Positions 3,875-13,319 of a stretch of DNA of 45,619 nt are shown here, one piece after another (position 1 is the first letter of the stretch; the number at the start of each line of letters is the position of its first letter). The position numbers and the translations under genes are program-made. The stretch covers positions 1-45,619 of the forward strand of contig NZ_AVSQ01000019.1 of NCBI RefSeq assembly GCF_000685395.1. The letters run 5' to 3'. The DNA comes from Candidatus Nitrosotenuis chungbukensis. GTDB lineage: Archaea > Thermoproteota > Nitrososphaeria > Nitrososphaerales > Nitrosopumilaceae. A model generated the notes under the pieces. The model was not told where the DNA came from and made no database searches. It saw only the letters and a program-made list of their open reading frames with translations.

Positions 3875-5158
3875 TTATTTACAATTACGTGTATGTATTG
3901 GACAGTCAGGTGGAACTATGCTTATGCTTTTCCATACTTTAAGCGGCATGCCGTTATCTTTTACATCACAGGTCACTAGATAATTTTTGGTAACATTGGC
4001 ATATCCATAAACATGTTCAACAAAAGGTTCATTTGTTTTGCCGGTAGAATTATCACCAAAATCCCACACGTAGTATCTATTTCTATGATTCACGCCGTCT
4101 AGTGTTGACTCCACATGGGAGTTAGCAGCACTTTCACATGAAAACTTTATGGGTTTGTTCGCGTGCCAAGTATCCCAATCATGATTACCATATCCAGATT
4201 CAATGGCAGTAATTTTCCAAGTCGTCATCGTTTTAGGCACAACCAAAACTGCAAATTTCCAATACTCCGACAGATAATCTGGGTCAGGGTGATTAATATC
4301 TGGCCAAACAGTAACATTCCCATTTATTATTCCCACTTTATTGTATTTGTAATGTTCAGCTAATCGATATGGTTGTGATTGGATGGATTGTTCTTCAAAA
4401 GTCCATTTTGTTTTAGATTTTATATTTTTAGTTGATATAGAAAAGCCGACAGAATCGCCTTGAACCACAACTGCCTGTAGTTGGTTAACATTAGAAATAA
4501 TTTCATTTGGATTTTTTAATACAGTGACATTAAACCGTTGAATAATCGGATCCAGACGATTTGGATCATAATAAGGATCTGTCACATTCACGTGTCCATG
4601 AAATGTGTAACGGTCATACGGCTTTCCATCAAAATCGTGATCATATTGATGATTTTCAATAATATTATAGACACTGCCTCTTTTTTGCCCATCACCAAAA
4701 TCCCAATGTTTCATGCAGCGATTATCAGTACCATTTAGAAAAAAGCCTATTGTGAGTCGGCCAATACCGTCCAAAGAACTCATCTTAAGATCTATGTGCT
4801 TCTTGCATAAACTTTTGTCACGCATTGCCCCAAATCCTTCAAATTTTTGTATGTTTTCGGATAGGATGCAAGCTACTCTGTTTTTGCCGAAATCTCTCAC
4901 AACTAGTACATAGCCATCTTCGCATTCAACATCCTCAGGATTGACTCCGGATTCGATCTGCAGTATTGGAGACAAGATCTTGTTTTGCACAATGTTTGTT
5001 TCCTGATCTGATGTTTTGTTAAAATCAGAATCATCCTCATATGAGGTGGGCAGTGGATGCCAGAAAATTCCAAAAACAAGGGGAACCATAAGGACTACAA
5101 TCCTATTGAACGACGGGTTCACGGGTTTTACATAATAGTTATTATTAAAAAAGATCAT
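3875..5158 (-). CDS. Secreted or membrane-anchored protein with PKD-type domains
   Basis: 427 aa with an N-terminal hydrophobic segment (about residues 18-33), probably a signal anchor. It is followed by an extracellular-type sequence rich in N-x-S/T. Two PKD hallmark strands are visible: HWDFGDGQ near residue 150 and VWDFGDNS near 370, each followed by a His/Tyr-rich strand as in PKD beta-sandwiches. PKD domains mediate protein or glycan contact at cell surfaces. The gene is visibly richer in A+T than its neighbours and sits beside the tyrosinase gene on the same strand, which suggests an acquired surface module. Ligand unknown. Confidence 0.8.
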   Translation of the reverse strand: MIFFNNNYYVKPVNPSFNRIVVLMVPLVFGIFWHPLPTSYEDDSDFNKTSDQETNIVQNKILSPILQIESGVNPEDVECEDGYVLVVRDFGKNRVACILSENIQKFEGFGAMRDKSLCKKHIDLKMSSLDGIGRLTIGFFLNGTDNRCMKHWDFGDGQKRGSVYNIIENHQYDHDFDGKPYDRYTFHGHVNVTDPYYDPNRLDPIIQRFNVTVLKNPNEIISNVNQLQAVVVQGDSVGFSISTKNIKSKTKWTFEEQSIQSQPYRLAEHYKYNKVGIINGNVTVWPDINHPDPDYLSEYWKFAVLVVPKTMTTWKITAIESGYGNHDWDTWHANKPIKFSCESAANSHVESTLDGVNHRNRYYVWDFGDNSTGKTNEPFVEHVYGYANVTKNYLVTCDVKDNGMPLKVWKSISIVPPDCPIHTRNCK

Positions 5159-5314: not shown

Positions 5315-6169
5315 TCACGATCTTGATTTTCTCACAATAAATGGATTAATCAAAAATGCAACGGTTCTAGCCAAGACGACAAAAGGCAATACAATTGAAT
5401 ATTTCATTATGTGCTTAAACGCATTATTATGATACATGGCATCTGCAATAGGTGGACTAAAAGAATAGTATACGTTTAGAATTGTGTTAAATGGTTTTTG
5501 AAATCGGGATTGCAGAACAACGTTATCTCTAAAGTTCCTCAAAAATCTAACAGGGGGCTCCAGATCAGAACCATATGCAGCAGTAGCAATGAAACAACGG
5601 CTCTTCCCATTTGGGGAATTTTGCCAGTCACTCCATAAATCATCCAAAAATGCATGCCAGGGATAGAATATTGGGTCTTGTGGAGATCTAAACGAGTTCA
5701 TGTCTCCGCCAATAGTCATGTGAACCAAGCCATGAAAGTCAGATCCCAGCGCCCTCCCCAATTCATCGGAGCTCTTGAATTGACCCAACGAAGTGTAGCC
5801 AAATACAGGATCACCGATAGATCCACCTGCCAGAGTGATCCACGAGGGAGGTGAGATTCCAGGATTATTCGTACTTCTACCAGGATGTGAAAATTCTGCA
5901 GGAATTGGATCCGCAGGATTCCATTTCGGTAATGGAACATATTGATTTTTTCCACGATTTATGAGGGCATTCTCTAAATTTTTAATAAAATTTCGATGAA
6001 AATCTAAAAAATGTTCCCCACTTCCAGGCCCAATCATACCGCCAGAACCGTGCATTTGATGCCATGCCTCATGAGCATCAAGAACGGCTTGTGTGACATG
6101 TCCTCGTATCAAATTTGCTAATTCTGTTAATTCGGAGGATGAAAGAGTTTTGAGATCTCTTCTATGCAC
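5315..6169 (-). CDS. Tyrosinase-family type 3 copper protein with CFI-box-CTERM tail
   Basis: Residues 1-185 match the tyrosinase fold. CuA ligand candidates are H33/H37/H40, H53 and H58 (GEHFLDFHRNF). CuB ligands are H146 and H150 (FHGLVH) plus H172 in SPQDPIFYPWHAFLDDLW, the classic block. The enzyme class oxidises phenols to catechols and quinones. Residues 192-201 read CFIATAAYGS, the CFI-box, followed by a C-terminal hydrophobic helix near 258-276 and basic residues; this tail resembles a sorting or anchoring module. No N-terminal signal peptide is visible. A tyrosinase from Ca. Nitrosopumilus koreensis has been studied as a monophenol monooxygenase (recalled, not checked). The region is A+T-rich, as is the PKD neighbour. 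Confidence 0.85.
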   Translation of the reverse strand: MHRRDLKTLSSSELTELANLIRGHVTQAVLDAHEAWHQMHGSGGMIGPGSGEHFLDFHRNFIKNLENALINRGKNQYVPLPKWNPADPIPAEFSHPGRSTNNPGISPPSWITLAGGSIGDPVFGYTSLGQFKSSDELGRALGSDFHGLVHMTIGGDMNSFRSPQDPIFYPWHAFLDDLWSDWQNSPNGKSRCFIATAAYGSDLEPPVRFLRNFRDNVVLQSRFQKPFNTILNVYYSFSPPIADAMYHNNAFKHIMKYSIVLPFVVLARTVAFLINPFIVRKSRS

Positions 6170-8518: not shown

Positions 8519-9628
8519 ATGAAAATATGCGTTATAATCATTTTTGTGGCTTTTATGTTGTTTGTACAGGCAACTCCAATCTTTGCAGACGAGAAATCAG
8601 ACAAGGCAAACGCCATGTATGCAGACGCTGCAAAATATTTTGCAAAGGGCAAATACAAAGAGGCGATATCACTATACGACAAGATACTGAAAAGCTACCC
8701 AAACAACATAGCGGTCCTAAAAATGAAGGCAGTTGCAGAAAGCAATCTCGGCTACCATCAAAAATCGCTTGTTAACTTTTACAAAGTATATCAGAAGGAT
8801 CCAAAGGATCTGGTCTCATTACTTGGCCTAGGCGTAGGGTTTGGCAACTTTGGCGAATATTTGGAAGCAAAAAAGTATTTTGATGCGGCATACGGCATTT
8901 ATCCAAATTCCACTGTCGCAAAAAACTACAAGGATCTTGCGGACAAGACAATCAAGAAATACCCATACAAGCCAACTGAAAAGCCAAAAAAGACAGAAAT
9001 GGACACAAAGACATTTGATGGATACGTCAGAAAGGTGTCTTCAACAGTATCAAAGGAAAAACGTTACATCGAGTATCCAAATCCAAGCTTTGACGTAATC
9101 AAAAAGTTTCTCAGAGATTACGAGAAATGGAACTTTGAGCAGCAGATAAAGACAGGCTCTAGCGTATTTCCAGATCCAGTGGTGACCCAGAATAACGACA
9201 CGTATGTCTTAAACTACAAGATTTTTGTAAACAAACAGCCAATGGGCTTGCCGCTAGATCATGTCGGCACGCTAAACAACTCCACCAAATACTGGGAATC
9301 CCAGGCGTTTAACTCAAACAAAGGAAAGGCGGCAGTAAAGATCACCCCCACAGACACAAAGGCAGAGGCAAGCATTTGGGTCACATGGACAGTACGAAAA
9401 CTTGGAGAGGGAGTCCTAGGCCATGCACACGTCGGAAAGGGCGCAGTCGAAGTCGCGCTTGGGGACTACAACTGTGATGGGAGTTTTCAACTGTACGACG
9501 TGAAAAGCGTTGAGAAAATAATGCGGCACGAGTTGGGCCATTCAATAGGACTGAGTCATTCATCAGATACGAGTAGCATCATGTATCCGTCCATGAAGCC
9601 AAGATACGCGTATTGCCTACTGAACTAG
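8519..9628 (+). CDS. Secreted TPR-containing metzincin-type zinc protease
   Basis: The N-terminus is a clear signal peptide (MKICVIIIFVAFMLFVQ, cleavage after about residue 23, PIFA). Residues 25-150 are TPR-like repeats with YFAKGKYKEAISLYDK. The C-terminal domain ends with the zinc motif HELGHSIGLSH at 337-347 and a Met-turn SIMYPSM at about 353-359, the arrangement of matrixin/M10-like metzincins. The three His bind zinc and the Glu is catalytic. It is exported and probably acts on extracellular or pseudoperiplasmic proteins. The Met-turn lies only 14 residues from the C-terminus, so the lower subdomain is minimal. The gene overlaps the next, convergent gene by 12 bp. Confidence 0.88.
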   Translation: MKICVIIIFVAFMLFVQATPIFADEKSDKANAMYADAAKYFAKGKYKEAISLYDKILKSYPNNIAVLKMKAVAESNLGYHQKSLVNFYKVYQKDPKDLVSLLGLGVGFGNFGEYLEAKKYFDAAYGIYPNSTVAKNYKDLADKTIKKYPYKPTEKPKKTEMDTKTFDGYVRKVSSTVSKEKRYIEYPNPSFDVIKKFLRDYEKWNFEQQIKTGSSVFPDPVVTQNNDTYVLNYKIFVNKQPMGLPLDHVGTLNNSTKYWESQAFNSNKGKAAVKITPTDTKAEASIWVTWTVRKLGEGVLGHAHVGKGAVEVALGDYNCDGSFQLYDVKSVEKIMRHELGHSIGLSHSSDTSSIMYPSMKPRYAYCLLN

Positions 9629-12615: not shown

Positions 12616-13254
12616 TTAGTTTTTGTCTGACAGTGTGACTATATTTTCATCAGAATTACCAGTGCCATCATTACCTACTGTAATTTTGTTGGCGTCTGCT
12701 GTTTTTTCAGCTAGTTTCTTGATGTCAGATGTGGTCTTGTCAGCTAGTTTCTTGGCATCTGTTGCTTTCTTGTCAGCTATTTTCATGGCGTCAGCTACTT
12801 TCTTGTCAGCTAGTTTCATGTTGTTTGCTGCTTTCTTGTCAGCTAATGCTTTGAAGTCGGTTGCTTTCTTGTCAGCTAATGCTTTGAAGTCAGTTGCTTT
12901 CTTGTCAGCTATTTTCATGGCGTCAGCTACTTTCTTGTCAGCTAGTTTCATGATGTTTGCTGCTTTCTTGTCAGATAATGCTTTGAAGTCGGTTGCTTTC
13001 TTGTCAGCTAGTGTCTGAAAAAATGCCGCTTTTCTGTCAGCTAGCTTCATGGCATTAGATACTTTCTTGTCAGCTAGTTTCTTGGCGTCAGCTACTTTCT
13101 TGTCAGCTAGTTTCTTGTCAGCTAGTTTCTTGGCGTCAGATGTCTTGTCAGATATCCCATAATCTGCAGCGTATGCAGACTGCATCATAGAGGTGCTAAT
13201 GACTCCAGTTAACAATGAAAAAACTGCAATACTTGCAAGTAATTTAGTGTTCAT
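12616..13254 (-). CDS. Secreted 11-residue-repeat, Lys/Ala/Asp-rich coiled-coil (LEA-like) protein
   Basis: About 212 aa. The signal peptide ends near AYA-ADYG (residues about 29-31). The rest is a run of 11-residue units on the theme K-x-x-A-D-K-K-x-x-D-x, for example KLADKKVADAM, KIADKKATDFK and ALADKKAANNM, making at least eight consecutive copies and a 33-bp DNA periodicity. An 11-residue period with A/K/D composition is the hallmark of group 3 LEA and right-handed coiled-coil proteins. The tail is acidic and Asn-rich. It is probably an extracytoplasmic protective or structural protein. The ATG at 13254 is preferred to the GTG one codon upstream. Confidence 0.75.
   Translation of the reverse strand: MNTKLLASIAVFSLLTGVISTSMMQSAYAADYGISDKTSDAKKLADKKLADKKVADAKKLADKKVSNAMKLADRKAAFFQTLADKKATDFKALSDKKAANIMKLADKKVADAMKIADKKATDFKALADKKATDFKALADKKAANNMKLADKKVADAMKIADKKATDAKKLADKTTSDIKKLAEKTADANKITVGNDGTGNSDENIVTLSDKN
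12725..13135. repeat. 33-bp tandem coding repeats in the LEA-like gene
   Basis: On the plus strand the word TTCTTGTCAGCTA recurs at mostly 33-bp intervals, with variable inserts (TTTCATGGCGTCAGCTAC, ATGCTTTGAAGTC). Some blocks are nearly identical, for example those around 12780-12830 and 12910-12960. Copy number is likely to vary between strains by slippage. Confidence 0.85.
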
Positions 13255-13319
13255 CACAGAGATAACGCGGTGAATCTATTAAGCCGCGCTTACGTTTGTG
13301 TTAGTCTTGTGGATGGACT

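Follow-up and report, generated by a model that had tools for sequence, protein, structure and literature searches.

A compact tyrosinase-like domain with probably arthropod-like copper ligands, fused to a CFI-box tail in Candidatus Nitrosotenuis chungbukensis

Which type of copper site is carried by an archaeal tyrosinase-like protein that ends in a CFI-box-CTERM tail, and where in the cell should such a protein be expected? Both questions were raised by a gene in the window, i.e. the whole stretch of DNA analysed here, which is one entire 45.6 kb contig of Candidatus Nitrosotenuis chungbukensis (NZ_AVSQ01000019.1, positions 1 to 45,619, 45,619 nt; assembly GCF_000685395.1). The genome measures 1.76 Mb and encodes ten CFI-box proteins. 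An earlier note, made from the bare sequence, had proposed a tyrosinase with complete copper sites, fused to this tail and attached to the membrane or the surface.

The fusion and its relatives

The gene lies on the minus strand (5315..6169) and encodes 284 residues from a GTG start at 6169, a start codon backed by orthologue L071, whose ATG (MHRR...) is aligned at the same position. Residues 1-190 (5600..6169, minus strand) form a compact type-3 copper (tyrosinase-like) domain, as indicated by an AlphaFold2 model and by a match to Pfam family Tyrosinase (PF00264; E 5.5e-18, 66.6 bits, cut-off 22.6). Residues 192-259 matched the NCBIfam model CFI_box_CTERM (NF041770; E 7.8e-21, 73.7 bits, curated cut-off 40), the alignment covering model positions 1-65 of 69. 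Both matches exceeded their cut-offs and the proposed fusion was thereby borne out. It was encountered again in a congeneric genome (L012, the same gene as L071), with 68% identity over the full length. This second, divergent copy answers the survey for further fusions that had been suggested and rules out an assembly error as the source of the first. No N-terminal hydrophobic segment was revealed by hydropathy, and an in-frame stop is located eight codons upstream of the GTG, so that no signal peptide is hidden there; its absence had been correctly observed.

Tyrosinases were detected in 25 of the 400 sampled genomes of the host's class. They are thus uncommon, as had been claimed for archaea, but hardly exceptional, since two archaeal tyrosinases have already been produced and assayed (PMC11608171). 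When the first alignment was used for a survey, compact relatives of the window domain were uncovered in another archaeal genome of the same family and in Bacteroidetes; further ones were parts of multi-domain proteins from Chromatiales, Ardenticatenales, Methylococcaceae and Steroidobacter. No relatives of the window domain were found on viral contigs. A plasmid search with the window domain retrieved distant tyrosinases only, and one with the Bacteroidetes relative retrieved nothing. Two tailless compact relatives, L072 and L073 (from Bacteroidetes and an archaeon), had unusual neighbours, such as a phospholipase D-like gene at L073, and the two loci could possibly represent a shared cassette.

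Genome G025, from the host's genus, encodes two compact paralogues of about 150 residues each (L097 and L100), both devoid of the CFI tail. L097 kept all six histidines. L100 has lost several copper ligands, with NWN at the position of the third CuA histidine and FWQMY at that of the third CuB histidine, and is likely a non-enzymatic copy, as with insect storage hexamerins.

Copper ligands and predicted structure

Six histidines were invariant among the nine members of the compact family. The first part of the CuA motif, H33-E-A-W36-H37 (HxxWH; 6059..6073, minus strand), is situated on helix 27-40 of the model, and the third CuA ligand, H58 (5996..5998, minus strand), terminates the segment GE-H-F-L-D-F-H on helix 50-71. 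The CuB ligands are H146-x3-H150 on helix 134-153 (5720..5734, minus strand) and H172, in the segment DPIFYPWH, on helix 168-183 (5654..5656, minus strand). W36, G51 and F57 were invariant as well, and conservation of the putative ligands across relatives was clear from the alignment.

The canonical CuA motif reads H1-(n)-H2-(8)-H3 (PMC3658974). Its H2 is missing here: residue 49, nine positions before H58, is a glycine in the window protein and in its closest relative, and none of the nine members (archaea and five bacterial lineages) displayed a histidine at this position. A histidine was present at H2 in 11 of the 16 archaeal tyrosinases compared. With Gly49, the window protein falls outside the definition of the alpha-subclass CuA, and the claim of complete CuA and CuB histidines holds for CuB (H146, H150, H172) but not for a canonical CuA. 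Neither H40 nor H53 is conserved (H53 is replaced by arginine in the closest relative and H40 varies in more distant ones), which ruled out either residue as the second ligand of a canonical CuA. The window domain displays instead the feature of the beta-subclass, a second CuA histidine on the first CuA helix (HxxxH), in the form of the invariant H33-x3-H37. Two shorter compact relatives (L074 and L076) lacked HxxWH and kept a loop histidine near H3.

The AlphaFold2 model of the domain (m677caf9e1781; mean pLDDT 91.4, pTM 0.89) placed all six histidines on helices, three for each copper site. The structure prediction called for in the earlier note therefore agreed with two three-histidine sites, although CuA (H33/H37/H58) is not of the canonical type. 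According to a review, both copper sites of insect phenoloxidases are of the CuB type (PMC11608171), and this is the arrangement that the modelled window domain displays. In whole-domain Foldseek searches, Streptomyces and Bacillus tyrosinases ranked at the top (E 2e-4, TM about 0.57) and arthropod enzymes matched weakly, over ~90 columns. Full-length searches gave long alignments with rmsd values of mostly 7-12, the tail being poorly modelled (pLDDT about 40-58); a helix predicted at residues 249-277 lies in this low-confidence region.

Many tyrosinases have an asparagine after the first CuB histidine, and the idea that this residue influences activity comes from plant enzymes. The window protein has a glycine there (Gly147), a weak pointer to diphenolase over monophenolase activity.

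Relation to arthropod enzymes

A profile restricted to CuA, compared with the PDB, retrieved Manduca phenoloxidase (3hhs_B) as its best match (E 0.0012). The histidines of the two are in register, as is the GELF..H segment, and HxxWH of the window protein is aligned with HHWHWH of the insect enzyme. The remaining PDB matches, fungal AsqI included, had E values of 0.07 or worse, and the best canonical tyrosinase reached E 0.2. Reciprocal comparison of HMMs, in which the alpha-type model was built on 16 archaeal tyrosinases, pointed in the same direction: phenoloxidase CuA and CuB segments scored 16-30 bits with the compact family versus at most 14.5 bits with the archaeal alpha-type, and mollusc hemocyanin showed the reverse (47.7 bits with the alpha set, 19.3 with the compact one). 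Pfam family Hemocyanin_M (PF00372) was matched by four of the nine compact members (best E 3.8e-4); the window protein itself gave no match to it at E 10. The ranking from an enriched profile (A7) was set aside, as this profile contains phenoloxidase segments and is hence circular. In all likelihood, the ligand arrangement of the window domain is arthropod-like.

The origin of this likeness is a separate matter. The survey of 2013 that defined the subclasses recognised no bacterial or archaeal members outside the alpha-subclass and traced the beta-subclass back to an origin among early eukaryotes (PMC3658974). No later report of a prokaryotic beta-like family was found, which is weak evidence given that the literature search covered little of the subscription literature. 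In trees of 74-100 columns with long branches, the compact family and four phenoloxidases grouped apart from the archaeal alpha-type with support of 97/100 and 100/99. Common ancestry of the compact family with the arthropod enzymes may be entertained as a possibility, and it is likewise only tentatively suggested that, against the published view, the archaeal and bacterial compact family shares ancestry with the beta-subclass, its domain being tethered to the membrane by the CFI tail in some archaea. A competing account, plausible though doubtful, has the helical CuA arising independently in compact prokaryotic tyrosinases, the likeness to phenoloxidases then being convergence; it concerns origin only and is compatible with the mechanism proposed below. 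Such an independent origin is suggested by L074 and L076, which are compact and have the loop histidine without HxxWH, and it fits the preference of Foldseek for bacterial tyrosinases as well as the small number of columns (~100) and the long branches of the trees, in which alternative placements of the phenoloxidases, inside the compact family or elsewhere, were not excluded (AU test, p 0.21-0.27). Convergence at CuA accounts less well for two results: the grouping stood when the first CuA helix and the loop columns were removed (100/99), and phenoloxidase CuB segments on their own favoured the compact HMM (29.8 versus 14.5 bits).

The arthropod type of dicopper site underlies insect phenoloxidase and arthropod hemocyanin. 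What appears new here is an arthropod-like copper site in prokaryotes, from which the 2013 survey reported it to be absent (PMC3658974). A prokaryotic domain of 190 residues with this probable ligand arrangement would offer a minimal, expressible test case for the origin of the beta-subclass.

The tail, the proposed mechanism and known systems

The tail (residues 192-284; 5318..5596, minus strand) belongs to the rarer of two CFI-box subtypes distinguished in the host's class by tail comparison (CFIATAAYGSDLEPPV...). Its most hydrophobic segment, LPFVVLARTVAFLINPFIV (residues 261-279; 5333..5389, minus strand), is a candidate membrane helix of 19 residues; with a mean Kyte-Doolittle hydropathy of 1.96 and an arginine inside, it is moderately hydrophobic and borderline, and it corresponds to the terminal hydrophobic helix that the earlier note had pointed out after the CFI box. 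The common subtype (GGGCLIATAAYGSELAPQVQ...) has a second hydrophobic stretch, and 19 of its 21 complete examples displayed an N-terminal hydrophobic signal. The subtype of the window (CFIATAAYGS-LEPPV...), found in 14 of the 400 genomes with one copy each, displayed such a signal in none of 13 complete examples (Fisher p 1e-7, indicative only, as the sequences are related). An association of this tail subtype with proteins devoid of a signal was thus evident from the sequences compared. It was carried by two compact proteins, two canonical tyrosinases (L013 and L015), short proteins, six cellulase-like proteins and one protein with a weak trypsin-like match. The cellulase-like proteins (L120, L121, L124, L126, L127 and L128) all come from one genus; the one tested, L120, gave no Pfam match, and none of the five complete ones had a signal peptide. 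The joining of one rare tail to tyrosinases of two different kinds suggests that tyrosinase and tail are functionally paired. A literature search for CFI-box-CTERM by name found no mention, and this rare tail, seen on signal-less proteins and joined to two tyrosinase kinds, could provide a handle on the role of the CFI box.

The reading that we favour, with moderate confidence, is that of a compact dicopper enzyme with a helical CuA (H33, H37, H58) and CuB (H146, H150, H172), probably an o-diphenol oxidase, whose tail would tether it to the membrane. CuA would be formed by the helical HxxWH pair H33/H37 together with H58, and CuB by H146, H150 and H172, so that both coppers would be held wholly by histidines borne on helices, as in arthropod phenoloxidases and hemocyanins. 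Judging from the chemistry of the family, O2 bound side-on between the two coppers would oxidise a bound phenolic, the activity probably being that of a catechol-type (o-diphenol) oxidase; copper binding, activity and substrate are predictions. As there is no signal peptide and the tail subtype was found here only on signal-less proteins, the tail with its single hydrophobic helix would most likely bring the enzyme to the membrane post-translationally, presumably so that the catalytic domain faces the cytoplasm. Membrane association by the tail is accordingly considered likely, and of the membrane or surface attachment claimed earlier, it is the surface part that was weakened (0/13 versus 19/21).

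Two other readings would deprive the protein of its activity or displace it. The gene might encode a bacterial-type tyrosinase, acquired by the archaeon, with a degenerate CuA and one copper or none, hence not an oxidase. The missing canonical H2 (Gly49), the whole-fold and Pfam matches that favour bacterial tyrosinases and the clear loss of ligands in the congeneric paralogue L100 would all fit. We regard this as quite improbable: unlike in L100, all six positions are conserved, HxxWH is invariant across several phyla and the arrangement equals a known working geometry (PMC11608171, PMC3658974). A phenol oxidase of the surface or S-layer, exported without a signal through its CFI tail and modifying neighbours such as the PKD protein, is in turn rather unlikely. 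The same tail does occur on signal-less enzymes of often-secreted types (cellulase-like and weakly trypsin-like) and could itself be an export signal; but within the same genome, the CFI proteins of exported appearance have a signal peptide and the other tail subtype. Linkage speaks against it as well. For the PKD-domain protein (3875-5158, minus strand), which also matched WING-49 (NCBIfam, 35.4 bits), 17 congeneric genomes yielded a single clear orthologue. In its genome, G083, no tyrosinase was found beside it or elsewhere, and no PKD gene was present on the 11.4 kb contig of the second fusion. Functional pairing with the PKD protein was ruled out by this lack of linkage, and the suggestion that its tyrosines are modified was left unsupported.

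Elsewhere in the window, a gene on the plus strand (8519-9628) encodes a protein whose N-terminal segment resembles a signal and which contains the zinc-protease motif HELGHSIGLSHS, and one on the minus strand (12616-13257) encodes a secreted-looking protein with repeated A-D-K-K-L/V/A units.

Among known systems, the bacterial tyrosinases MelC2 of Streptomyces (1wx2/5z0f) and that of Bacillus megaterium (3nm8) share with the window domain the type-3 fold, the CuB site and PF00264, but they have a canonical CuA with a loop H2 nine residues before H3, comprise about 275-290 residues and lack the CFI tail; a caddie protein is found in Streptomyces. The canonical archaeal tyrosinases L013 (genome G122) and L015 (genome G061) bear CFI tails that are 71% and 59% identical to that of the window and, like the window protein, have no signal peptide, whereas their alpha-type domain with loop H2 is clearly distinct. 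NkTYR (mTyr-CNK) and NsTYR (Nitrosopumilus) are archaeal tyrosinases like that of the window (PMC5722948, PMC11608171). NkTYR (415 aa) is extended C-terminally; it was expressed and hydroxylates tyrosine, and removal of the extension improves its behaviour (PMC5722948). Its length suggested an already characterised CFI fusion. This was rejected, as the published R293, H294, P303 and 415 aa fit the L045 type (RHVLDDNLTIP at 292, 414 aa), which, unlike the window protein, has a canonical CuA and a C-terminal extension without CFI box. From these residue numbers and this length we infer that NkTYR is of the L045 type; on that comparison, the tyrosinase-CFI fusion appears not to have been studied before.

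Manduca sexta PPO1 (3hhs_B) resembles the window protein in its CuA HxxWH pair on one helix, in the third CuA ligand within G-E-x-F-x3-H, in the CuB motifs HxxxH and PxF(Y/W)x(W/F)H and in the absence of a signal peptide. In contrast, the window domain is only about 190 residues long, without the additional hemocyanin domains, the C-terminal tail is different and the overall fold search placed the domain nearer to bacterial tyrosinases.
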